This document shows, in pieces, positions 3,592-28,562 of a DNA stretch of 35,198 bases. This DNA is from a virus. A model generated the notes under the pieces. That model was not told where the DNA came from and did no database searches. It saw only the letters and a list, made by a program, of their open reading frames with translations. Where the stretch lies: IMG/VR virus record IMGVR_UViG_3300027770_000143, positions 1 to 35,198 of that record. One strand, given 5' to 3'. The position numbers were made by a program, and so were the translations under genes. The first letter of the stretch is position 1. Every line of letters begins with the position of its first letter.

Positions 3592-4034
3592 GCCATCGGG
3601 AGTCACTGACGGCGCATTTTGAGCGGCTAGACCTGCCGCCGGATGCTGCTGCGTGGCTCCTGAACTTGTGGGACGTGATACAGGTGTTTGACGACCTGTA
3701 CGACCGCGATGAGGTGTCGCGGCACACCGTCCTGACAACCGTATGGCGGGTGCTGGTAGCGATGCCTGCTAACCCGTTCTACAAGGCTAACGAGCCGCAC
3801 CTGTCGCCCATTATTGCCAACGCCCTGTTCAAGTGGCAGGCGGCGAATGTGGCAGAGGATGACTACGCCGTCAGCGAGGTTTCCTTCGTGTGGCGTGCTG
3901 CGTTTTACGATGTTGTGTTAATGGTAGTCGCGCTTTGTCACGGCCCCGACAAAGCACTTGAGATGGCTCATGTGGTGATGGGGCTGTACGGCGAGAAGTA
4001 CGCCGACTACCTGAAGGAGTTTGACCATGCCTGA
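3588..4034 (+). CDS. Conserved-looking helical phage protein of unknown function
   Basis: 148 aa from a GTG start overlapping the previous stop. The protein is acidic at the N-terminus and largely alpha-helical (HFERLDLPPDAAAWLLNLWD..., then WRVLVAMPANPFYKAN and HVVMGLYGEKYADYLKEF). No catalytic motif, signal or membrane segment is clear. It lies immediately upstream of, and overlaps by 8 nt, the first ejection-type protein, and its last codons contain that gene's Shine-Dalgarno. The neighbourhood suggests a virion assembly or minor structural role. Confidence 0.6.
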   Translation: MSHRESLTAHFERLDLPPDAAAWLLNLWDVIQVFDDLYDRDEVSRHTVLTTVWRVLVAMPANPFYKANEPHLSPIIANALFKWQAANVAEDDYAVSEVSFVWRAAFYDVVLMVVALCHGPDKALEMAHVVMGLYGEKYADYLKEFDHA

Positions 4035-4821
4035 CCCGATAACCGCAGCAGTATCCGCCATAAAGGGCGGTAGCGCCATCCTGCAAAAGAAGAACCTCAA
4101 GAAAGCGGCAAAGAAAACTGCTGCTGAACTGGCTGCGGGCCAAGAAAAGTCGCTTGCTCTCCAAAAGGAGATGTACGACAAGCAGGTTGCCCTGCAAAAC
4201 CCGTTCTTGCAATCAGGCAACCTTAGCAACGCCGAACTTATGCGGCAGATGGGGTTGGCTGGTGACGCCACTTCTGCTGGCTACGGCAATATGCTGCGTG
4301 ACTTCTCTGCCGCAGACTTTCAGGCAGACCCTGGCTACGCATTCCGTTTAGCAGAAGGGCTGAAGGCGCTTGACCGCACTGCTGCTATGCGCGGCAAGAT
4401 GATTTCTGGTCAGGCACTCAAGGCTGCTGGGCGGTACGGTCAGGATATGGCGTCTCAGGAATACCAGAACGCCTACAACCGCTACAACACTAACAACCTG
4501 AATCGCTACAATATGCTTTCTGGGCAACAAAACGTCGGCGTAAACGCCGCAAACACACTTGGTCAGGCAGGGCAGTTTTACGCTACTGGCGGCGGAAAAA
4601 ACATCGTCGGCGCATCTGAAGCGCGTGCGTCCCAGTACAAACCAATTGCTAACGCCAGCAATGCCATGATTGGCAGCTTGACCAGCATGGGAACTGATTT
4701 GCTTGGCAACTACGGCAGCGGTTCGTTCAAGGACTACAGTGGCGCTGGCTACGGTCCCGGCCCATACGCTCCGCCCGTCGGCACTCCCGGCGTAGCGATT
4801 CCTAAATATACGAATTACTGA
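4027..4821 (+). CDS. Putative DNA ejection / internal virion protein (P22 gp7-like position)
   Basis: 264 aa. The ATG at 4027 is preferred over the TTG at 4021, because GAAGGAG lies 7 nt before it. The N-terminal helix (residues ~12-55) is Lys/Ala/Gln-rich with strong amphipathic character, followed by NPFLQSGNLSNAELMRQMGL and ALDRTAAMRGKMISGQALKA, a signature of phage DNA-transfer proteins in which a short-loop AMRG[KR] segment follows helices. The C-terminus is Gly/Tyr/Pro-rich. By order and style it corresponds to the first of three ejection proteins that leave the capsid with DNA and help form a conduit through the periplasm. Confidence 0.65.
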   Translation: MPDPITAAVSAIKGGSAILQKKNLKKAAKKTAAELAAGQEKSLALQKEMYDKQVALQNPFLQSGNLSNAELMRQMGLAGDATSAGYGNMLRDFSAADFQADPGYAFRLAEGLKALDRTAAMRGKMISGQALKAAGRYGQDMASQEYQNAYNRYNTNNLNRYNMLSGQQNVGVNAANTLGQAGQFYATGGGKNIVGASEARASQYKPIANASNAMIGSLTSMGTDLLGNYGSGSFKDYSGAGYGPGPYAPPVGTPGVAIPKYTNY

Positions 4822-4831
4822 GGCTACGCCC

Positions 4832-6061
4832 ATGCCTATGCAACCTGTCAATATTAGCGATACCGGCTATCAAATGTTTTTGGACGATGAGTCCGTGTTT
4901 GCTCCGCGAGAGCGAGGGCTAGAGCGTCAGGCCAAGCAGAACGCCCTTGCTCGTCAGCAGGCCGTCCGCAACGCCCTTGCAGCCAACATTGACCCTGCTA
5001 CTGGGCGAACCAACTGGCAGAATGCCTATGCTATGGGCGGGCAGGATGTTGCGCCTGAGTTGCAAGGTATGCAGCAGGCTGATTTGATGGCGCAAGCTGA
5101 GTTGTCGCATAAGCGCGGCTTGGGAACTAAAGCAAACCTTGATGCTCAAAGTGAATACTGGAAACAACAGCGCGATACGGCGGCTCGTATTGGCGACCAG
5201 TCTTCATGGTCTACTTGGCGCAGCACTTTGCCGGGTGAGTATCAACAATTTGTTCCTGAACAATATTCGCCTGAAAATCAGCGTATGACGCTTGCCACTG
5301 CTGACAAAGCGTTAGAAATGCATTTTCAGCAAGTTGATACCGGCCCCGGCGGGTACACGCTTGCAATGCCTAAAATGGGCGGTCCGGCAGTTCAGGTTCC
5401 CGGTAGTAATTACACAACAACGCCTACCATTGGTGAAACGGAAACTCAACGTCACAACAGGGAAATGGAGGCCAATCAGCGGCAACAAGAAGCAAGGCAA
5501 GGGACGCCTGACCCTATCAAACTCCGTCGTGAGGCTACTACGCTTCGCAAAGAATTTGACGCACTGCCTGAGGTTAAAGACTTTAAGGCTGCCTTGCCCG
5601 TGCTTATGTCTGCACGCAACGCACCTGATACGGCGGCTGGTGACATTGACTTGGCTTACGCCGTTGGCAAGATTTACGACCCAAAGAGCGTGGTTCGTGA
5701 AAGCGAACAAAAGTTGGTGTACACAACCGGTTCTGTTTTGCAGAAACTAATTGGCGGCGCCAATGTTGCGCTTACCGGCGGCACTCGATTGCCATCAGAA
5801 GTTAGGCAAAAACTGCTTAACGCTTTGAACAACCGTGTTCTGCAATTCCGTCAAGCATATGACCAAACTCGCGGCACTTACGAAGGCTATGCCAATCAGT
5901 CAGGGTTTGACCCTGTAAACGTAATTGGTCAGCATCCCGCAATCGCGTATAAAGGGCAAAGCAGCGCCGTTGTTCAAGTAATAACCGACGCTGATTACAA
6001 CAAATTGCCATCTGGCACATTGTTTGTTGGCCCTGACGGCAAGCAGCGGAGGAAGCCGTAA
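4832..6061 (+). CDS. Putative DNA ejection / internal virion protein (second of three)
   Basis: 409 aa, Gln/Ala-rich and mostly helical. Notable features: an N-terminal LERQAKQNALARQQAVRNAL helix, a central charged segment with REATTLRKEFDALPEVKDF around residue 233, and a C-terminal DYNKLPSGTLFVGPDGKQRR motif. The latter short beta motif is common at the end of phage internal virion and peptidoglycan-interacting proteins. The gene lies between two other ejection-type genes and overlaps the next start by one base (TAATG). The role is inferred from order and composition rather than from a catalytic motif. Confidence 0.6.
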   Translation: MPMQPVNISDTGYQMFLDDESVFAPRERGLERQAKQNALARQQAVRNALAANIDPATGRTNWQNAYAMGGQDVAPELQGMQQADLMAQAELSHKRGLGTKANLDAQSEYWKQQRDTAARIGDQSSWSTWRSTLPGEYQQFVPEQYSPENQRMTLATADKALEMHFQQVDTGPGGYTLAMPKMGGPAVQVPGSNYTTTPTIGETETQRHNREMEANQRQQEARQGTPDPIKLRREATTLRKEFDALPEVKDFKAALPVLMSARNAPDTAAGDIDLAYAVGKIYDPKSVVRESEQKLVYTTGSVLQKLIGGANVALTGGTRLPSEVRQKLLNALNNRVLQFRQAYDQTRGTYEGYANQSGFDPVNVIGQHPAIAYKGQSSAVVQVITDADYNKLPSGTLFVGPDGKQRRKP

Positions 6062-8649
6062 TGGGATGGAAAGACGCGCCGGTAGAAAAAACTCCCGCTT
6101 GGGCGTCTGCACCTGTTGTTAAACAGACTGAACAACCTGAAGGCGGTACGGCTCAGGATTACGGCGCTGCGGTAGCCCGCGGCACTAGCCCTTACATGGC
6201 GGCGTCCCTTGCTGGCGCTGCTGCTGGCAGCGTTGTTCCGGGTATTGGCACCGCTTTTGGCGCCGCCGCTGGGCCTGTTGCTCTTGGCATCACCGACCTT
6301 GCAACTTATGGGTACAACAAACTTGCCACGCCATTTGGCGCAAGGCCGCTAGAGTCAGGCTCTGAAGCAATCAATAAGTTGCTTTACCCAAACCTTCCTG
6401 AGACTCGCGGCACCGGCCCGCAGTTGCTGCAAGCCACGCTTGCTGGTACTACCGGAGGGTATGGCGCAGCCAAGGGAGCAGAGGCAGTATCGCAAGGAAT
6501 GAGGTTTGCAGACCAAAGCCGAGTATTGCCTCGTGTTGTAAACGAATTGGCAGTGCGCCCCGGCTCTCAGGCTGCTGCTGGTTTTGGTGCTGGTGCTGGG
6601 TCTTATTTGGCACCGCAGGCAGGTCAGGCAGCAGGCATACAAGACCCTGCACTGCTTGAATTGCTTGGCCTTGGTGGCGGCTTGGTTGGCGGTGTTGCTG
6701 GCGGCGTAACGCCGTTTCTGCTTGAGGGAACAACCAAAATTGCAGGCCGCGGCATTCAAAACTTTGCTGAACCGTTTTTGCCAGGCGGTAAAGACGCTAT
6801 TCGCGCTCGCGCTTTTGTTAAAGCGTTTGAAAACAATCCGCAGGAAATGCAGCGTGCAGTACAGTTGCTGAGCAGTGGCCTTACCGTAGAACAAACAGCC
6901 GCAAAACTGGGTAATACCGGATTTGCAGCACTTGTTAGTTCGTCTCGTCAATCTAACCCACGCTTTCAAACAAAACTTGAGTCTCAAGAATTGACAACTT
7001 CGCAGTCTCAAGCAAACCGCGTAGCACTTGCTAAACGTGAACTTGAGTTAACTCAACAAGGTCTTGACCAACGCACTGCCGCGGCACAAGCGGCTGCGGA
7101 AGCTCGTGCGGCAGCGCAACAAGAAAACGTGCAGACCAAGCAGGCTGAATTGGGAGGCCAAGTTCGTTCCGTTGACCCAGTTGAAGCAGGAAAAACGCTA
7201 ACAACTATTCGCAATCAATTGATTAAAGACCTAAAGCCAAAAATTACCGCTTTGTATGAAGGCGCATTTAACCTTGCGCCAAAGCCATTTAGTTTTGGTG
7301 ACGTTGAGGCCGCTGCTAAAGAAATATCTAACAATCCTGCTACTGCACTAAATCCTACTCATGCGCCATACACTGCCAAAGTAATGCATTTGTATGAGAC
7401 TAAAACGCCACCCGATACTAATGTACTTGTTGGACCTCGCGGAGAGCGTTTGTCTCCTGAACCACAGCCTCAACCGGCTATGGTGTCCTTGCGAGAAGCT
7501 GATACATTCTTGCACGCTGTAAACAAAGACCTTGACAGTCTGTACGGCTTGCAAGATGCGGGGGCTAATGCTACTCGCGCAAACTTGATGAAGTTGCAAA
7601 CTGCGGCACAAAAAGCAATTGATGCCGGTGTTACTGGCGATGCCAAGACGGCCTACAAAAACGCTTCTGAAACTTGGCGAACGCAATTAAGTGAGCCATT
7701 CCGTCAAGGGTGGGTTGCTAACCTTGAACGCGTAGGCGCTACCGGTACGCCAATTCTTGCACCAGACGAAGTTACTAGCGCCGCGCTAAAAAGCACTGAC
7801 ACCGCCTCGCGCTTTGTTCGTGCATTTGGTAGCAGCGACACCGCCAAAACCGCTTTGCGTAACGGCATCGAAGAGTTGTATCGCAAAACTGTTGTCAATA
7901 AAGACACTGGCGCAATTGACCCCAAAAAGCACGCTGACTTTATGGACGCCTATAAGCGTCAAATTGCCGTGCTTGATGATTCCGGAGTTAATATTGGCAA
8001 AACGCTTGAGCAGTATGGAAGTGGCGCTCGCCGTTTGCGAACAGAATCCGAAGTTGCTGCGGAAACATCTAAGGGCATATCTGGTCAAGTTAAAGAAAAG
8101 TTTGCCCCTGAACAGGCGCAAATTGACAAGGTGACAACAATCGCAAACAGGGCTGCTAGCAAACTTGCAGATGTGCCGCCAGAACGGTCTATTGAAAACC
8201 TAAATAAATTGACGCGCAATTTGCCTCAAATTCGTAAGGCCGTAGACGATGTGCTTGCGGAAATACGACAGCAAAAGCGATTTGAAAGCTTGGCAGCAAA
8301 AGGCGAAAAGTCTGGCGGCAATGTTTTGGGGCTAGTCAGCCAGGCAACCGGCAACCCGCCAATGTCTCTCAGTACCGTAGGCTCAATCCTAAATTTCATT
8401 TTGCGTCGGGCGCAGGGCAAATTGAACCCCGAACTTGCCGCCAAAATTGCCGCCGAGACGTTCAACGCATCTGGCCTTGCCAGCATGATTGAAGGCGCGC
8501 CAGCAGCAGCAGCGCGTACTGGTCGCATGGGCAAGATTGGTCGCACTTTAAACGCACCCGTCAAAAAGCCTGACTTTAGCCTGACGTTGACTGGTATCAA
8601 CGCTCTTGCGCCGGAGCGCAATCGTAACAACGCCCTTGCGGAGCAATGA
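6061..8649 (+). CDS. Large ejection / internal virion protein with glycine-zipper membrane region
   Basis: 862 aa. Residues ~40-85 are a Gly/Ala zipper (SLAGAAAGSVVPGIGTAFG onward), with a second Gly-rich hydrophobic block at ~195-220 (GLGGGLVGGVAGGV). Both are compatible with membrane insertion. Residues ~285-370 contain a long coiled coil rich in Gln/Ala/Glu, and the remaining half is helical. This architecture fits the largest of the three P22-type ejection proteins (gp16/gp20 position), which enter the cell envelope and open a route for the genome. No lytic transglycosylase or other catalytic motif was recognised. Third-codon composition is AT-richer than in the flanking lysis genes. Confidence 0.65.
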   Translation: MGWKDAPVEKTPAWASAPVVKQTEQPEGGTAQDYGAAVARGTSPYMAASLAGAAAGSVVPGIGTAFGAAAGPVALGITDLATYGYNKLATPFGARPLESGSEAINKLLYPNLPETRGTGPQLLQATLAGTTGGYGAAKGAEAVSQGMRFADQSRVLPRVVNELAVRPGSQAAAGFGAGAGSYLAPQAGQAAGIQDPALLELLGLGGGLVGGVAGGVTPFLLEGTTKIAGRGIQNFAEPFLPGGKDAIRARAFVKAFENNPQEMQRAVQLLSSGLTVEQTAAKLGNTGFAALVSSSRQSNPRFQTKLESQELTTSQSQANRVALAKRELELTQQGLDQRTAAAQAAAEARAAAQQENVQTKQAELGGQVRSVDPVEAGKTLTTIRNQLIKDLKPKITALYEGAFNLAPKPFSFGDVEAAAKEISNNPATALNPTHAPYTAKVMHLYETKTPPDTNVLVGPRGERLSPEPQPQPAMVSLREADTFLHAVNKDLDSLYGLQDAGANATRANLMKLQTAAQKAIDAGVTGDAKTAYKNASETWRTQLSEPFRQGWVANLERVGATGTPILAPDEVTSAALKSTDTASRFVRAFGSSDTAKTALRNGIEELYRKTVVNKDTGAIDPKKHADFMDAYKRQIAVLDDSGVNIGKTLEQYGSGARRLRTESEVAAETSKGISGQVKEKFAPEQAQIDKVTTIANRAASKLADVPPERSIENLNKLTRNLPQIRKAVDDVLAEIRQQKRFESLAAKGEKSGGNVLGLVSQATGNPPMSLSTVGSILNFILRRAQGKLNPELAAKIAAETFNASGLASMIEGAPAAAARTGRMGKIGRTLNAPVKKPDFSLTLTGINALAPERNRNNALAEQ

Positions 8650-10747: not shown

Positions 10748-10902
10748 CGCAGCGTCTCCGGGCGTTCCCGTCGCAGCCGTTCGTTCTCCTCGCGGAGCAA
10801 GTGGTTGTCAATAATCACGCGCTCCAGTTCGGCCTGCAAGGCTTTCAGTTGCGCGTCCACAATTGATATGCGGTTAAGCAAGTCAAAGTCTGCTTGGTTC
10901 AT
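10744..10902 (-). CDS. Small leucine-zipper coiled-coil protein
   Basis: 52 aa. Residues 8-48 carry heptad-spaced Leu/Ile (DLLNRI, DAQLKALQAELERVI, LLREENERLRRER), giving a clear parallel coiled coil. The start ATG overlaps the methyltransferase stop (ATGA); an upstream in-frame ATG at 10938 lies in the methyltransferase and is not needed. Function unknown; a dimeric regulator or adaptor is possible. Confidence 0.65.
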   Translation of the reverse strand: MNQADFDLLNRISIVDAQLKALQAELERVIIDNHLLREENERLRRERPETLR

Positions 10903-11729
10903 AGTTTGCTTACCTCGTTGATTCGTTCGCCAATCCAACGCATCACCGGCACAGCCATTGAGTTGCCCAAGGCCTTATACCTTGGGCCATCAGGCGAGTC
11001 TTCCTTACCGCGCCAAGGGATGTTCGTGTAGCCGTCCGGAAAGCCTTGCAGGCGTTCGCATTCCATGGGGGTAAGGCGGCGTACCTGCATTGTCTGCATC
11101 ACTACAGTCCCGCCTTGAGAACAGGTGGGGTTCAGCCCGGATGCGGCGTCCAGCGTCTTGCTGGTGTCCTCGTCCGTGCGGACGTAGAACCCACCTTCAG
11201 GCCGGTCTGCGCGCTTGTTGCCCCCGTAGATGTTTACCGCCACCACATCCATGCCACGGTCGGCGCACGGGCTGCTGTCGTGCCGAGCCGTCAGACTGCG
11301 GGCAATATCCCCGCCAAAGGCAACCGCATGAACGTCCGTCTTGGTCAGAGTGAACATCGCGCCACTGGCGTCTGCTCCGCTGCCTTCGCAGCCGCCGCGG
11401 ACTTTGAAGGTGTGAGCAGGTTGCAGCACCGCGCCGAAGTTTGCCTTGTCAGGCATCCTCTGGGCGCCGCTTGCGTTCTGCTTTGTCAGGGTTGGCGCTA
11501 CGTCCTCCCCGTCCCACCAGCACCCGGTAACAAGACTGGCGGTGTCTTGGTCACTGCGGCCGATGACTGTGCCTTGGATGGCGACGGTTACGCCTTGCGT
11601 GGCATGGGTGTCCACCGTGTAAGCACTGCCGTCATCATTCCAGCCCTTGCCATTCTGTGCCTTCTCTACGGCGCGAACGTCTTGTAGGGCAATAAGATGC
11701 CCGTTGTTAGCCGATTGGTGCGTTAACTT
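10899..11729 (-). CDS. C5 cytosine DNA methyltransferase, C-terminal part (target recognition and motifs IX-X)
   Basis: Continuation of the gene at 11707-12363 in a second frame; no own start codon or Shine-Dalgarno is evident, so the listed start is just the frame junction. The segment has a long variable target-recognition region with repeated APTLT/SLTAR-type elements and a QRMPDK motif typical of phage methyltransferases. Motif IX follows (VRRLTPMECERLQGFPDGYT), then motif X (YKALGNSMAVPVMRWIG). Everything needed for an active enzyme is present if the frames are joined. Joining needs 9 or 12 G in the tract. As given, it is either phase-off, frameshifted at translation, or a sequencing error. 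Confidence 0.8.
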   Translation of the reverse strand, partial: KLTHQSANNGHLIALQDVRAVEKAQNGKGWNDDGSAYTVDTHATQGVTVAIQGTVIGRSDQDTASLVTGCWWDGEDVAPTLTKQNASGAQRMPDKANFGAVLQPAHTFKVRGGCEGSGADASGAMFTLTKTDVHAVAFGGDIARSLTARHDSSPCADRGMDVVAVNIYGGNKRADRPEGGFYVRTDEDTSKTLDAASGLNPTCSQGGTVVMQTMQVRRLTPMECERLQGFPDGYTNIPWRGKEDSPDGPRYKALGNSMAVPVMRWIGERINEVSKL

Positions 11730-12363
11730 CCCCCCCCCCGCACTCTGTGTCGAGACTGCCAACAACGCCAGGCGCAACGCTTCCGGCAGTTCCTTTCCGC
11801 GCTTGTCGGCTCGGCGCAGGATGCCCCGACAGGCTGTGTCGCTCAAAAAGAACCGCTGCGGCACGGTGCCAGTCTCCAAGGTATCCGACAACGAACACAC
11901 GGCGGCGTCGCTGGGCCACTCCGAAGTACTGAGCGTCAAGCACTCGGTAAGCCCACCCATACCCGAGTTCTGCCAACCCTCGAAGTAATGCGGCAAAATC
12001 TCGTCCTCCTTCACTGGATAGGACGCCGGGGACGTTCTCCCATACCAGCCACTGGGGCCGATAGCGTTGAGCAATGGCAAGATAGGTGAGCATGAGGTTG
12101 CCACGCGGGTCATCCAGTCCTTTTCGGAGTCCGGCGACTGAGAAGGATTGGCAGGGAGTTCCTCCGACGAGAACATCGATATTTGCATCAGGCCATTCCT
12201 TAAACTTGGTCATGTCGCCCCAGTTAGGGACGTTGGGGTAGTGGTGCGCTAGCACGGCGCTGGGAAACTTCTCAATCTCGCTGAACGCCACCGGTTCCCA
12301 GCCCATGTGATGCCAGGCAACGCTTGCAGCCTCAATACCGGCACACACGGACAGGTACTTCAC
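11707..12363 (-). CDS. C5 cytosine DNA methyltransferase, N-terminal part (frame broken at G10 tract)
   Basis: 218 aa as read. GTG start overlapping the upstream stop (GTGA). The catalytic half of a Dcm/phage-type C5 methyltransferase is complete: motif I LSVCAGIEAASVAWH (residues 4-18), acidic motif II FSEIE, motif IV GGTPCQSFS with nucleophile Cys71, motif VI WENVPG (108-113), motif VIII QRRRRVFVVG (151-160). The frame ends shortly after a run of ten G (minus strand) at 11730-11739, and the target-recognition half continues in another frame. With nine G the two parts fuse into one protein of about 487 aa. The enzyme would transfer a methyl group from S-adenosylmethionine to cytosine C5, probably protecting phage DNA. 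Confidence 0.85.
   Translation of the reverse strand: MKYLSVCAGIEAASVAWHHMGWEPVAFSEIEKFPSAVLAHHYPNVPNWGDMTKFKEWPDANIDVLVGGTPCQSFSVAGLRKGLDDPRGNLMLTYLAIAQRYRPQWLVWENVPGVLSSEGGRDFAALLRGLAELGYGWAYRVLDAQYFGVAQRRRRVFVVGYLGDWHRAAAVLFERHSLSGHPAPSRQARKGTAGSVAPGVVGSLDTECGGGEVNAPIG
11730..11739 (-). repeat. G10 homopolymer tract inside the methyltransferase gene
   Basis: Ten consecutive C on the plus strand (ten G in the coding sense) lie exactly where the methyltransferase reading frame is broken. Long mononucleotide tracts are classic sites of slipped-strand mispairing and also of sequencing or assembly length errors. Removing one G or adding two restores a full-length enzyme. Confidence 0.9.
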
Positions 12364-21940: not shown

Positions 21941-22159
21941 GCACTTTCGCAAAAAAGTTTGTAGTGAATGTTGGCAGGATGGAAAAGGGTTCCCTACAAA
22001 TAACTTTGGGCTTATGTCATGCGCACGCGCACGCAAACTGACCCCAATGTTCTTTGTGCCTAACCCTTTTTCGTCCGACGCATCTTCACGCAAAGCCTTG
22101 TGGTGATGTACTGCTACCCTGCCAATACTGTTAACCTAACACTAGTGGCCATGCTGCGG

Positions 22160-22250
22160 TGCAGCACTACGCTCGCGCTATGCGGCTATGCAGCACGCAT
22201 GACGCAGTGCAGCATTGTTGCGGTGCAGCATCTATGCGGCGGTGCAGCAC
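22160..22250 (+). repeat. Five TGCAGCA[C/T] repeats, candidate pac/terminase-binding site or origin
   Basis: TGCAGCAC or TGCAGCAT begins at 22160, 22189, 22208, 22224 and 22243. Three copies are preceded by GCGG(T), and the first forms a hairpin (TGCTGC-GGT-GCAGCA). Spacings are 29, 19, 16 and 19 bp. The array lies about 90 bp upstream of the small terminase gene, where binding sites for packaging initiation are commonly found. Function unproven; a replication origin or regulator site is an alternative. Confidence 0.6.
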
Positions 22251-23096: not shown

Positions 23097-24413
23097 ATGC
23101 CGCCGGGTACTCGTAATGCGTTAGTGCCTCCCTCGCCAAACTATCTTAGGGATGCTGGTGAACTTACTGGCGGCCTGTTGCGTGGTTCCTCTACCGCGCT
23201 TATGGGCGGTTTGCAGATGCGTGACCAACTGGCGCTAGATGCCTATAGGTCTCAGCAGGCAGGTAGTCTGCAAGGTGTGTACGCGGACGCTTGGCGTGCG
23301 GCACAGGAGGCTGCTGCCAACCCGTCTATGATTACGGACGCCGTTGGCAACTCACTACGCGGTATGTGGAACCGTGCCAAGTCCGGCCCTGCGGGGTTGG
23401 GTGAGGTGGTGGGTGAGAACATAGACCCGCGTAACTGGCTGAAGCCGCGTAAGGCCATTATGTCGCAAGCCGTGGAATCTACTGCCCGTCCTCGCGTAGC
23501 CACATGGTTTTCAGGTTCTCGCACAATGGAAAGTGCGTTGCCCGGCACTGAACACGTCATGGCGGTTGAGTACAACCCCAAAATCAACGAGTTTGCCAAT
23601 CAGTCGCACGGCACGGCTTTTCCTTCCCGCAGCGTTACTGACATAGACCCACAGGAACTGAAAGCGACTAATCCTGACTTGTTCCACGCGAGTCCTGTCT
23701 GCAAGAACTTTTCTGCTGCCAAAACCATGCGTGGCGCTACAGACCTTGACCGGCAAAGTGCTGAGTCGGTTGCCCGTGCTATTCGCGAGGCTACGCCGCC
23801 CGTAGTGACCGTAGAAAACGTTCCGCAATACGCGGACACTGCGTTGTTCAAGCACATCACGGATGCGCTGGATGCCAAGGGCTACAAGTGGGATGTGGTC
23901 ATTCACGACGCCGCCGACTACGGTGCGCCGCAGTCTCGCAAGCGAATGCTGCTGCGAGCCGTGCGTGAAGGTGAGTTGCCGCCTATGCCGCCCAAAACTG
24001 GCGGTAAGGATTGGTTTGGCGCGGTGTCGGACTTGCTGCCGGATGCGCCGGGGTCTGCCATTCCGCCTGTTGAGCGTCGGCGCTTGGATGAAATGATTGC
24101 CCGCGGTCAACTAGACCCAAACAAACCTATCATCACAATGGGCGGTAGCGGGTTCCGTAACACCTGGGCGGCATCCAACGCTGGTCAAGTTGCGCCTACA
24201 CTCAAGGCTGCTAACGAAAAGCCGCGCATCATCATGCCTGACGGCACGGTCAAAACCGTTACGGGTCGCATGATGGCTCGTCTCATGGGGCTGGGCGATG
24301 AAGTTGCCGTGCCTGATAGCCCCACGCTTGCCAAAACCGTGCTTGGTAATGGCATTTCCGGTGACGTTACCCGCAACCTGATTGCGCCGTTGCTGAACAG
24401 GCCTAAGCCGTAA
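23097..24413 (+). CDS. C5 cytosine DNA methyltransferase with ~130-aa N-terminal extension
   Basis: 438 aa. From residue 133 the methyltransferase fold is clear: motif I VATWFSGSRTMESALPG, motif II VEYNP (157-161), a motif IV variant HASPVCKNFSAAK with probable nucleophile Cys202, motif VI VTVENVPQY (237-245), motif VIII YGAPQSRKRMLLRAV, motif IX GRMMARLMGLGDE and motif X VLGNGISGDVTRNL. The residue before the catalytic Cys is Val, not the usual Pro; some phage C5 enzymes have such PxC variants. Residues 1-130 (LTGGLLRGSSTALMGGLQMR, AYRSQQAGSLQGVYADAW...) have no methyltransferase motif and look like a helical virion-protein segment. The gene lies between terS and terL and overlaps terL by one base. 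Confidence 0.82.
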   Translation: MPPGTRNALVPPSPNYLRDAGELTGGLLRGSSTALMGGLQMRDQLALDAYRSQQAGSLQGVYADAWRAAQEAAANPSMITDAVGNSLRGMWNRAKSGPAGLGEVVGENIDPRNWLKPRKAIMSQAVESTARPRVATWFSGSRTMESALPGTEHVMAVEYNPKINEFANQSHGTAFPSRSVTDIDPQELKATNPDLFHASPVCKNFSAAKTMRGATDLDRQSAESVARAIREATPPVVTVENVPQYADTALFKHITDALDAKGYKWDVVIHDAADYGAPQSRKRMLLRAVREGELPPMPPKTGGKDWFGAVSDLLPDAPGSAIPPVERRRLDEMIARGQLDPNKPIITMGGSGFRNTWAASNAGQVAPTLKAANEKPRIIMPDGTVKTVTGRMMARLMGLGDEVAVPDSPTLAKTVLGNGISGDVTRNLIAPLLNRPKP

Positions 24414-25936
24414 TGCAAGAGCCAAAGTACTCCTCGCAAGAGGAGCAACTGCTTATGAGCAAATTGTGGTCACCCGCACTTGCGAACGACCCAGAAGCCT
24501 TTGTTAACTTTGCTTTCCCGTGGGGTGAGAAGGGTACGCCGCTAGAACACTTCCGTGGTCCGCGTAAGTGGCAGCGGGACGTACTGCGTGACCTGAAGAC
24601 CCACATCGCGGCTAACGGTGGCAAGGTAGACTTTGACGTATTCCGCCTAGCGTTAGCCTCCGGACGCGGTATCGGCAAGTCTGCGCTGGTGTCGTGGCTC
24701 ATCCTGTGGATGGTGACCACCCGTATCGGGTCTACCGTCATCGTCTCGGCTAACTCGGAAGCCCAGCTTCGCTCGGTCACATGGGCGGAAATCACAAAGT
24801 GGCTGGCGATGCTGATAAACAGCCACTGGTGGGAGATATCGGCTACCCGCGTCATGCCCGCCAAGTGGCTGACGGAGTTGGTAGAGCGCGACCTGCGTAA
24901 AGGTACGCGCTACTGGTCGGTAGAAGGCCGCCTGTGGTCTGCGGAGAACCCCGATTCCTATGCCGGTGTGCATAACCACGACGGCGTTATGCTGATTTTT
25001 GACGAAGCCAGTGGTATTCCGGACGCCATCTGGGACGTTTCTCAGGGTTTTTTCACCGAGAACACGCCGCACCGCTTTTGGTTAGCGTTTTCCAACCCCA
25101 GACGCCCTACCGGCTACTTTTTTGAGTGTTTTGCCGCCAAACGAGCTTTTTGGAAGTCCAAAAACATCAACTCGCTGGATGTTGAAGGCACTGACCACTC
25201 CGTTTACAAGCAAATCATCGACGAATATGGTGAGGACTCGCCCCAGGCGAAGATTGAGGTGTACGGGGAGTTTCCGTCTGTCGGTGATGACCAGTTCATC
25301 CCCGCGCATTGGGTAGATGAGGCGTTCAAGCGCCCCCGGTGGAAGGATGAAACAGCCCCCGTGGTGATTGGCGTAGACCCCGCCCGTGGCGGCGCGGACT
25401 CAACCGTCATCGCTGTGCGCCAAGGCCGCGACATTATCGCCCTCAAGCGGTATTCCGGTGAGGACACCATGACGGTGGTTGGGCGGGTGATTGAGGCGAT
25501 TGAGGACTACCGGCCCGCGTTGGTCTGTATAGACGAGGGCGGGTTGGGCTACGGCATCCTTGACCGCCTAACCGAGCAGAAGTACAAAGTCCGTGGCGTC
25601 AACTTTGGCTGGAAGGCCAAGAATCCGGTGGCGTGGGGCAACAAGCGAGCGGAAATGTGGGGGGCAATGCGGGACTGGCTAAAGACCGCTTCCGTTAAGG
25701 AAGACCGCCAACTGAAGGCAGATTTGGTCGGCCCTACCAAGAAACCCAATTCTGCGGGTACAATATTCCTTGAGGGCAAGAAGGAAATGAAGGCACGGGG
25801 GCTGGCCTCACCGGACGCTGCCGACGCCATCGCAGTAACTTTTGCTTTCCCCGTGGCGCATCGGGAGTATACTGCGCGCAACCCCGTCCGAACCTATAGG
25901 GACGGCACTGTCTCCAATTCTTGGATGGGAAGTTAA
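24413..25936 (+). CDS. terL: Terminase large subunit (packaging ATPase/nuclease)
   Basis: 507 aa. ATPase: Walker A ASGRGIGKSALVSW (residues 82-95), Walker B GVMLIFDEAS (191-200), coupling motif around AFSNPRR. RNase H-like nuclease: VVIGVDPARGGADSTV with Asp322, LVCIDEGG with Asp374, and SPDAADAIAVTFAF with Asp468/471. Length and motif order are normal for TerL. It translocates DNA into the prohead through the portal and cuts it when the head is full. It starts with TAATG overlapping the methyltransferase stop, so production of the two is coupled. Confidence 0.95.
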   Translation: MQEPKYSSQEEQLLMSKLWSPALANDPEAFVNFAFPWGEKGTPLEHFRGPRKWQRDVLRDLKTHIAANGGKVDFDVFRLALASGRGIGKSALVSWLILWMVTTRIGSTVIVSANSEAQLRSVTWAEITKWLAMLINSHWWEISATRVMPAKWLTELVERDLRKGTRYWSVEGRLWSAENPDSYAGVHNHDGVMLIFDEASGIPDAIWDVSQGFFTENTPHRFWLAFSNPRRPTGYFFECFAAKRAFWKSKNINSLDVEGTDHSVYKQIIDEYGEDSPQAKIEVYGEFPSVGDDQFIPAHWVDEAFKRPRWKDETAPVVIGVDPARGGADSTVIAVRQGRDIIALKRYSGEDTMTVVGRVIEAIEDYRPALVCIDEGGLGYGILDRLTEQKYKVRGVNFGWKAKNPVAWGNKRAEMWGAMRDWLKTASVKEDRQLKADLVGPTKKPNSAGTIFLEGKKEMKARGLASPDAADAIAVTFAFPVAHREYTARNPVRTYRDGTVSNSWMGS

Positions 25937-26354: not shown

Positions 26355-28562
26355 ATGGCTGATACGGGCATGATTGGCGCAGAACGGGTTGCTAACAGCC
26401 CGTCCTCCCGTCGCAACAAGGATGACACGGACATCCTTGCTGTTGCCCGTACTCGCTTTACGCAAGCCATCTCGGCGTACAGCGACTCCCGTGAAGACGA
26501 ATTGGACGACCTGCGCTTCCTTGCCGCAAGCCCTGACAACCAGTGGCAGTGGCCCGCAGACGTCCTAGCGACCCGAGGGTCGGTGCAGGGGCAGACCATT
26601 AATGCTCGCCCCTGTCTGACCATCAATAAGCTGCCGCAGCACGTTCGTCAGGTCACCAATGACCAGCGGCAGAACCGGCCCTCGGGCAAGGTCATCCCCG
26701 TAGATGACAAGGCTGACCTGCAAGTTGCGGAAGTGTTTGATGGCATCGTGCGGCACATTGAGTACATCTCTGACGCCGACGTTGCCTACGACACCGCCTG
26801 TGACAACCAAGTCACCTACGGCGAGGGTTACATTCGCATACTGACCGAGTATTGCGATGAAAACACTTTTGACCAAGACATCCGCATTCAGCGCATCCGC
26901 AACTCGTTCTCCGTGTACATGGACCCCACCATCCAAGACCCCTGCGGGTCGGATGCCCAGTGGTGCTTCATCACGGAAGACCTGACCAAGGACGAGTACG
27001 AGCGGTTGTTCCCTGACGCTGAACCCATTTCGTCCATCATGACGCGGGGTATTGGCGACCAAGGGCTGTCGCAGTGGATTAGCGACAAGACCGTCCGTAT
27101 TGCCGAATACTTCTACATCGAGCATGAGCGCAAGACGCTTAACCTGTACCCCGGTAACGTGTCGGCCTTGCAGGGTTCGCCCGAGGCCAAGCGTGCGGAA
27201 GCAATGGGTATGCCCATCCTGCGCCAGCGCCAAACGGACGTAAAGACCGTGAAGTGGTGCAAGACCAACGGCTACCAGATTCTTGAGGCTCAGGACTGGG
27301 CTGGCGTGTCTATCCCCGTAGTCCGCGTGGTCGGCAACGAGTGGGAAATTGAAGGACGGATGTACGTTTCGGGCTTGGTGCGTAACGCCAAAGACGCCCA
27401 ACGTATGTACAACTACTGGGTTTCCCAAGAAGCCGAGATGCTTGCCCTTGCCCCGAAAGCGCCGTTTATTGGCTACGGCGGGCAGTTTGAAGGCTACGAG
27501 CAGCAGTGGAAGACTGCTAACACAAACAACTGGCCTTACCTTGAGGTCAACCCTGACGTTACGGATGGCTCCGGTAGCGTTATGCCGTTGCCGCAACGCG
27601 CCCAGCCGCCTATGGCGTCTTCGGGGCTGTTGCAGGCTAAGGCAGGCGCGTCGGACGACATCAAGTCCACCACAGGGCAGTACGACAGCAGCATTGGCGC
27701 TACGTCCAATGAGCGTTCGGGCAAGGCAATCTTGGCGCGTGAACGGCAAGGCGACACCGGCACATACCATTACGTAGACAACCTGGCTCGCGCCATCCGC
27801 TACGTCACGCGTCAACTCGTTGACCTTATCCCCAAGATTTACGACACCCAGCGAATTGCCCGCATCATCGGTATTGACGGCGAAACAAAGACCGCCAAGA
27901 TTGACCCGCAGCAGCCCATGCCTGTCCGCGAAATCGTGGACGAAAACGGCATCGTGATTGAGAAAATCTACAATCCGTCTGTCGGCAAGTACGATGTTTG
28001 CGTGACCACCGGCCCGTCGTACATGACCAAGCGTCAGGAATCAATGGAAGCCATGTCGCAGATTTTGCAGGGCAACCCGCAACTGTGGCAGGTGGCTGGT
28101 GACCTGTTCGTCAAGAACATGGACTGGCCCGGCGCTCAAGAGATGGCAAAGCGTCTGCAAAAGACCATTGACCCCAAGCTGCTTCAGGACAACGACGAGA
28201 ATCCTGCGTTGGAAGCCGCGAATCAGCAGATTCAGGCGATGGGGCAGGAGATGGAGCAGATGCACCAGATGCTCCAGAACGTACACAAGTCTATCGAGGC
28301 GCAGGAACAGCGTCGGATGGACTACGAGTCCGAAATCAAGGCGTACCAAGCCGAGACGCAGCGCATCAGCGCCGTGCAGGCCGGTATGTCGGAAGAGCAG
28401 ATTCAGGACATTGTGGCAGGCACTATTGCCGCCGCTATGCACACGGGCGACCTGATTGGCAATATGCCGGAGCAGCAGATGCCCGAGTTCAACGAAGGTG
28501 AGATGCCGATGCAGGGTGGCGAGATGCCCATGCAGCAGCCGCCACAGGAGATGATGCAGTGA
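26355..28562 (+). CDS. Portal protein, P22 gp1-like
   Basis: 735 aa, close to the 725 aa of P22 gp1. Characteristic parts: ARTRFTQAISAYSDSREDEL near the N-terminus, RPCLTINKLPQHVRQVTNDQ (~90-110), NQVTYGEGYIRILTEYCDEN, and RNSFSVYMDPTIQDPCGSDA, all typical of P22-type portals. The long C-terminal region is Gln/Met-rich and coiled coil (AANQQIQAMGQEMEQMHQML...), like the helical barrel of P22, and ends in repeated EMPM units. The dodecamer forms the DNA entry vertex. The GTG of the next gene overlaps the stop. Confidence 0.92.
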   Translation: MADTGMIGAERVANSPSSRRNKDDTDILAVARTRFTQAISAYSDSREDELDDLRFLAASPDNQWQWPADVLATRGSVQGQTINARPCLTINKLPQHVRQVTNDQRQNRPSGKVIPVDDKADLQVAEVFDGIVRHIEYISDADVAYDTACDNQVTYGEGYIRILTEYCDENTFDQDIRIQRIRNSFSVYMDPTIQDPCGSDAQWCFITEDLTKDEYERLFPDAEPISSIMTRGIGDQGLSQWISDKTVRIAEYFYIEHERKTLNLYPGNVSALQGSPEAKRAEAMGMPILRQRQTDVKTVKWCKTNGYQILEAQDWAGVSIPVVRVVGNEWEIEGRMYVSGLVRNAKDAQRMYNYWVSQEAEMLALAPKAPFIGYGGQFEGYEQQWKTANTNNWPYLEVNPDVTDGSGSVMPLPQRAQPPMASSGLLQAKAGASDDIKSTTGQYDSSIGATSNERSGKAILARERQGDTGTYHYVDNLARAIRYVTRQLVDLIPKIYDTQRIARIIGIDGETKTAKIDPQQPMPVREIVDENGIVIEKIYNPSVGKYDVCVTTGPSYMTKRQESMEAMSQILQGNPQLWQVAGDLFVKNMDWPGAQEMAKRLQKTIDPKLLQDNDENPALEAANQQIQAMGQEMEQMHQMLQNVHKSIEAQEQRRMDYESEIKAYQAETQRISAVQAGMSEEQIQDIVAGTIAAAMHTGDLIGNMPEQQMPEFNEGEMPMQGGEMPMQQPPQEMMQ

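Follow-up and report, generated by a model that had tools for sequence, protein, structure and literature searches.

A tagged cytosine methyltransferase between the terminase genes of an uncultured P22-like phage as a probable virion-loaded cargo enzyme

Injected phage effectors have so far been recognised via large polyvalent chains or T4-type signals. Polyvalent proteins (e.g., with ART-PolyVal, LPD22/LPD23 or DarB-type methylase domains) are giant chains of several domains, which are encoded near virion genes and predicted to be injected with the DNA (Iyer et al. 2017, PMC5512222). In T4, a variety of injected proteins (IPI-III, Alt) begin with a short capsid targeting sequence, which is proposed to bind the procapsid core, and the first 10 residues of IPIII are enough for head targeting (PMC9026906). 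The ejection proteins of P22 are proposed to dock on the scaffold, whose N-loop promotes the incorporation of gp16 (PMC12005531). P1 DarB, a methylase borne in the head, protects injected DNA in cis (PMC5512222). The subject of this study is a gene in the uncultured-virus record IMGVR_UViG_3300027770_000143, whose whole stretch of 35,198 bases is referred to as the window and features a P22-type podovirus late region (portal, gp7-like, gp20-like, gp16-like, endolysin, TerL). Between the genes of the small (TerS) and large (TerL) terminase subunits, it encodes a C5 cytosine methyltransferase (MTase), which starts with a short peptide tag that is found again at the end of the phage's gp16-like ejection protein. 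Probably, virus particles take up the tagged MTase and inject it into the next host.

A search for the strict form of the tag, N-x-[LF]-x-P-x(3-5)-N-x-L, in the open reading frames (ORFs) of 84 loci of relatives (labelled L001, L002, etc.) and of the window gave 19 matches in 2,235 ORFs vs 0-1 per shuffle. The matches lie near the start or end of the ORFs and nearly all of them occur on putative cargo proteins beside or just after TerL; the remaining one is the end of the gp16-like protein in the window. A non-HNH ORF lies in the gap between TerS and TerL in 14 relatives, and 13 of these bear the tag; none of the three HNH-like inserts does. In the TerL neighbourhoods of DSL-LC05-type phages, no strict tag was present in 809 ORFs, as chance predicts, and no tagged cargo was found there, so sequences near TerL do not generally carry the tag. 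On the MTase, the tag is predicted by AlphaFold2 (AF2) to be disordered (predicted local distance difference test, pLDDT, about 30).

With a matrix trained on the cargo tags alone, the five best-scoring of 332 ORFs were gp16-like C-termini (22-22.8), and no shuffle exceeded 17.5. The gp16-like protein as a query for relatives found only 3 loci, which were too divergent. A second set of 80 loci was fetched with an alignment of the gp7-like protein, i.e., with a query lacking the motif, and offered 59 gp16-like tails. The relaxed bipartite motif, which had been defined on the first set of ejection tails before this later set was fetched, occurred in 27 of them and the strict one in 10, vs 0 of 103 tails of neighbouring ORFs (Fisher p=1e-14 for the relaxed motif, a value that ignores relatedness among the many tails related to each other). 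Typical endings were NALAPDNPNSNALAQ and NMLAPPSTNQNALAAQ, and the tag ending is also present on the gp16-like proteins of DSL-LC05 and further contigs. In addition, some gp16-like tails (L344, L346, L370, L371 and similar) finish with LN[SA]MRR or N[MS]MRR, which is possibly a variant of the tag. P22 shares with the window the 7-20-16 gene order and the P22-type portal, whereas P22 gp16 ends with ...RPLLANEATRQ and no tag, and there is no cargo between the P22 genes 3 and 2. The related Vibrio phage 1.211 (L388:12708-20855) has, as the third member of its ejection cassette, a 2,715-aa polyvalent protein in which LPD38 and a methyltransferase domain are present. The window tag resembles the T4 capsid targeting sequence in being a short N-terminal peptide on diverse proteins; unlike that sequence, it also stands at the C-terminus of an ejection protein, its residues are different, and no prohead protease was identified in the window.

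The position of the MTase gene turned out to be a recurring cargo position. Among relatives with 73-94% identical TerL, TerS adjoins TerL in most, while 14 contigs hold one or two cargo ORFs in the gap and three more have HNH-like inserts. The cargo comprises LPD23 proteins with an HELQH (HExxH) motif (L004, L057), ART-PolyVal (L067, L126) and similar proteins resembling ADP-ribosyltransferases (ARTs), an ART plus MTase in L002 and, in L001, the same MTase as in the window. Between the window and L004, DNA identity is 94% in the tag and 93% at the leader end, falls to 44% (unrelated) in the C-terminal part with a break near 23456, and reaches 87% in TerL. Likewise, the cargo proteins of L067, L098 and L101/L116 are nearly alike over the first ~120 aa and then carry different C-termini. 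Judged by these alignments, tag and leader stay nearly constant while the C-terminal domain behind them is exchanged. The tag is thus common to diverse proteins of one phage group, which would be packaged by means of it. Since the slot recurs and the tag is found on unrelated enzymes, the MTase is not a recent random insert, an outcome that would have spoken against the original prediction. As a further observation, L191 (2697-4991) encodes an ART+MTase fusion akin to that of L002 and interrupted by a stop codon shortly ahead of the MTase domain, in a phage whose portal has diverged.

Behind the tag follows a leader of about 110 aa, which is common to the cargo of related phages and, more distantly, to ART cargo of a second phage lineage. 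The first 130 aa gave no Pfam or PHROG match, and PF00145 starts only at aa 150, in agreement with the original prediction that this part belongs to no methyltransferase. The leader alone likewise found nothing among PHROGs or, as a profile, among PDB sequences. The ratio of nonsynonymous to synonymous substitutions (dN/dS) vs L001 is 0.06 for the leader and 0.06 for the MTase, so both are maintained; a joint alignment of leader and MTase was misaligned in the leader and not used for it. By these measures the N-terminal ~130 aa are separate from the enzyme and under purifying selection. The extension had also been described as helical and ejection- or portal-like: helices are indeed predicted, with low confidence, but no PDB sequence or family match accompanies the second half of that description, and a portal or ejection domain was ruled out for lack of homology. 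The cargo protein shows no homology to gp7, gp20 or gp16 and has only the tag in common with the ejection cassette.

Membership of the enzyme in the C5 MTase family is indicated by the family score (PF00145 covering aa 150-429, E=3e-26) together with motifs IV (Cys), VI (ENV), VIII (RxR) and X (GNG). Cys202, Glu240/Asn241, Arg281, Arg283 and Gly417-Gly419 are invariant in an alignment of 20 diverse sequences, the predicted structure has a pLDDT of mostly ~90 or above, and M.HhaI is the nearest solved fold (Foldseek, E=5e-16). Motif IV reads ASPVCKNFS, with Val instead of Pro before the Cys. It had been called atypical, which is right as to the residue; nevertheless, the motif is not degenerate, as PVC is kept across the aligned polyvalent-protein MTase family, for which one search pattern favoured or required PVC. 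A dead enzyme marked by PVC was ruled out on account of the family-wide motif and the intact fold.

In a search with the MTase alignment, about 30 of 36 viral loci had the MTase inside chains of about 1,400-4,900 aa, and LPD22 is also present in the MTase-bearing chains L192 (3,530 aa) and L003 (at least 1,438 aa). As its relatives are mostly parts of giant chains, the window enzyme is by descent a single-domain member of the polyvalent-protein MTase family. Window and sister cargo resemble polyvalent proteins in their repertoire of ART, HExxH-type peptidase-like and DNA MTase domains, in the MTase family itself (fused in those proteins) and in the nearness to late and virion genes, the cargo gene being placed between TerS and TerL with the portal following. 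They differ in the slot between TerS and TerL and in size and composition: at 438 aa with a short tag, a leader and one catalytic domain, the window chain lacks the at least two disparate domains of a polyvalent protein, which the ART+MTase relative in L002 would have. Moreover, the methylases treated in PMC5512222 are mainly DarB-like adenine MTases. P1 DarB is such an adenine MTase fused to a superfamily 2 (SF2) helicase, whereas the window encodes a C5 MTase without helicase; by analogy, it may share with DarB the role of a head-borne DNA methylase guarding injected DNA in cis.

In a second lineage (L124, L107, L163 and other loci within L093-L171), ART cargo of the same kind is encoded immediately 5' of a different TerL and bears another N-terminal tag, M-x-x-DRxRLAAALAY. 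A DRxRLAAALAY-like sequence starts a small ORF in the ejection-gene region of this lineage (score 18.1, shuffle maximum 15.2), a match which is suggestive only. The combination of a different tag with the same kind of cargo would imply a co-evolution of the tag with the virion machinery.

The gp16-like protein, presumed to be a component of the procapsid, has a linear motif in common with unrelated enzymes, for which a common dock is the simplest reading. By its N-terminal tag, the cargo would dock to the procapsid partner to which the gp16-like protein is attached by its C-terminus; this partner would most likely be the scaffold or else the layer of ejection proteins surrounding the portal. 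Translated from the operon of TerS and TerL, the cargo would be made while procapsids fill, and the helical leader could serve as a flexible, unfoldable spacer for passage through portal and tail. At infection, the MTase would exit with the ejection proteins and, before phage gene expression, methylate cytosines in the incoming phage DNA (or in the host DNA), thereby blunting restriction. The C-terminal domain would then be an exchangeable warhead, replaced in sister phages by ARTs or HExxH/LPD23 proteins behind the same tag. The sequences themselves establish the shared tag, the domain swapping, the polyvalent ancestry, the intact MTase fold and catalytic residues and the purifying selection; loading, docking partner, ejection, methylation target and DNA protection in the window phage are inferred. 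That the tag loads the MTase into the particle, to be ejected with the DNA, is in our judgement somewhat better than an even proposition. Delivery with the DNA in the manner of polyvalent proteins, one of the two roles originally considered, is indirectly well supported by the MTase family and by the tag shared with gp16-like C-termini.

Several observations weigh against this reading. The identity of the gp16-like protein is based on gene order and the annotation of a single record, and no family model matches the protein. About half of the gp16-like tails show just a single NxL/NxM element or lack it altogether. The cargo bears the tag N-terminally, the ejection protein C-terminally. For the leader, AF2 with 25 relatives gives helices of low confidence only. 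Activity of the enzyme is not assured, since in motif I, the FxGxG motif for AdoMet, the window reads FSGSRT and Arg142 replaces a near-invariant Gly, an exchange also present in L192. Finally, the cultured relative Rhodoferax phage P26218 is without the tag; so is the metagenome-derived MW202557, and no cultured tagged phage was found, all tagged phages in this analysis being uncultured.

Virion loading and injection have to be weighed against three other explanations. The tag could tether the MTase to the procapsid or terminase in the producing cell, where it would methylate the DNA during packaging; virions would then contain pre-methylated DNA, and injection of the protein would be unneeded. 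The gene's place in the operon of TerS and TerL with its stop/start overlap would suit this, as would a tag common to a presumed procapsid component. Nevertheless, ARTs and HExxH/LPD23 proteins, with no obvious packaging task, use the same slot and tag, the MTase relatives are for the most part domains of polyvalent proteins, whose injection is presumed, and a further C5-MTase region, which is split, is already present in the window (10899-12363, minus strand). We therefore regard methylation at packaging, the other role originally considered, as unlikely; it gained no specific support. That further region appears to be divided over two frames of 218 aa and 429 aa, which overlap, and has an unbroken 336-aa counterpart in L173 of a close relative; the split may represent a programmed frameshift, nested genes or an assembly error.

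It is also rather improbable that NxLxP...NxL is an assembly motif unrelated to injection which binds, e.g., TerL, portal or scaffold and tethers the enzymes for superinfection exclusion or late host takeover. The tag sits on proteins adjacent to TerL, which leaves room for such a motif; against this, the choice of enzymes fits the injected-effector repertoire of polyvalent proteins (PMC5512222), and the other tag bearers are gp16-like proteins, encoded by the third gene of the ejection cassette. An ordinary moron or solitary antirestriction MTase which landed by chance between TerS and TerL, with a meaningless remnant as its N-terminus, would account for the empty gap in most TerL relatives and for the movement of the MTase between phages (82.5% DNA identity to L002, compared to 73% in TerL). 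This explanation is very improbable. As both tag and leader recur on unrelated same-slot enzymes and the tag also on ejection proteins, it is for the most part refuted already, and it is further opposed by the low dN/dS of the leader and by C-termini exchanged exactly behind it.

Table 1. Features of the window that concern the tagged methyltransferase, the packaging genes and the ejection cassette
Feature	Coordinates	Strand	Basis or remark
Tagged C5 methyltransferase cargo gene, 438 aa	23097..24413	+	ATG 23097, TAA ends 24413
Tag NALVPPSPNYL, aa 7-17	23115..23147	+	Pattern N-x-L-x-P-x(2-7)-N-x-L
Helical leader module, aa 18-130, ~110 aa	23148..23486	+	Also before ART and LPD23 effectors
C5-MTase domain, aa 131-438	23487..24410	+	Pfam, catalytic motifs, AF2, Foldseek
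TerS-like small terminase subunit, 139 aa	22342..22761	+	Position before TerL; similar ORFs in relatives
Gly/Met-rich ORF, 111 aa	22758..23093	+	Probably disordered; overlaps TerS
TerL	24413..25936	+	PHROG terminase large subunit, E=1.4e-46
P22-type portal	26355..28562		Follows TerL
gp7-like DNA ejection protein	4021..4821	+	PHROG 598 DNA ejection, E=4.8e-27
gp20-like, second ejection-cassette gene	4832..6061	+	Synteny with P22 7-20-16; no family of known function
gp16-like ejection protein, 862 aa, third cassette gene	6061..8649	+	Synteny with P22
C-terminal tag copy NALAPERNRNNAL, then AEQ-stop	8599..8637	+	End of gp16-like protein

The arrangement of the locus (Table 1) was predicted correctly: the MTase gene lies between TerS and TerL, its stop codon overlaps the TerL ATG by 1 base at 24413, and the Gly/Met-rich ORF precedes it. 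The order is no isolated oddity, as L001 has the same one with the same protein (92% aa identity). The TerS-like protein is without Pfam or PHROG match; ORFs resembling it adjoin TerL in 74 of the loci examined. The Gly/Met-rich ORF has counterparts in L001 and L004, and the ORF in its position in L002 and L006 opens with a tag-like NAF.../N-Y-[FL] sequence. The gp16-like protein is also syntenic with the 'putative DNA transfer protein' of DSL-LC05. Immediately upstream of TerS, a 20-nt repeat (GCCATGCTGCGGTGCAGCAC-like) occurs in five imperfect copies (22148-22250), a candidate packaging or terminase-binding site. Among the tail genes, an HNH/AP2-like ORF of homing-endonuclease type is located at 683-1183, and ORFs resembling it occupy the gap between TerS and TerL in L017, L046 and L079.

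The literature searched held no description of the tag, the gene layout or the C-terminal motif of the ejection proteins; for entry into the P22-type particle it implicates the scaffold, but a peptide signal for cargo was not found. Tentatively, and at slightly under even chances, we propose that P22-like phages of waters, including lakes, use a portable loading code, N-x-L-x-P-x(n)-N-x-L, which is shared with an ejection protein and serves exchangeable enzymes encoded in a slot of the packaging operon, while another lineage uses DRxRLAAALAY, each code co-evolving with the virion machinery. Should the tag serve as a loading signal, ~15 residues could suffice to recognise the injected proteins of many uncultured P22-like phages; genomes could disclose which cargo is chosen, and protein entry into the P22-type particle could be revealed by a simple fusion assay. 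The locus would also offer a compact, naturally modular system to study protein delivery by phage particles.
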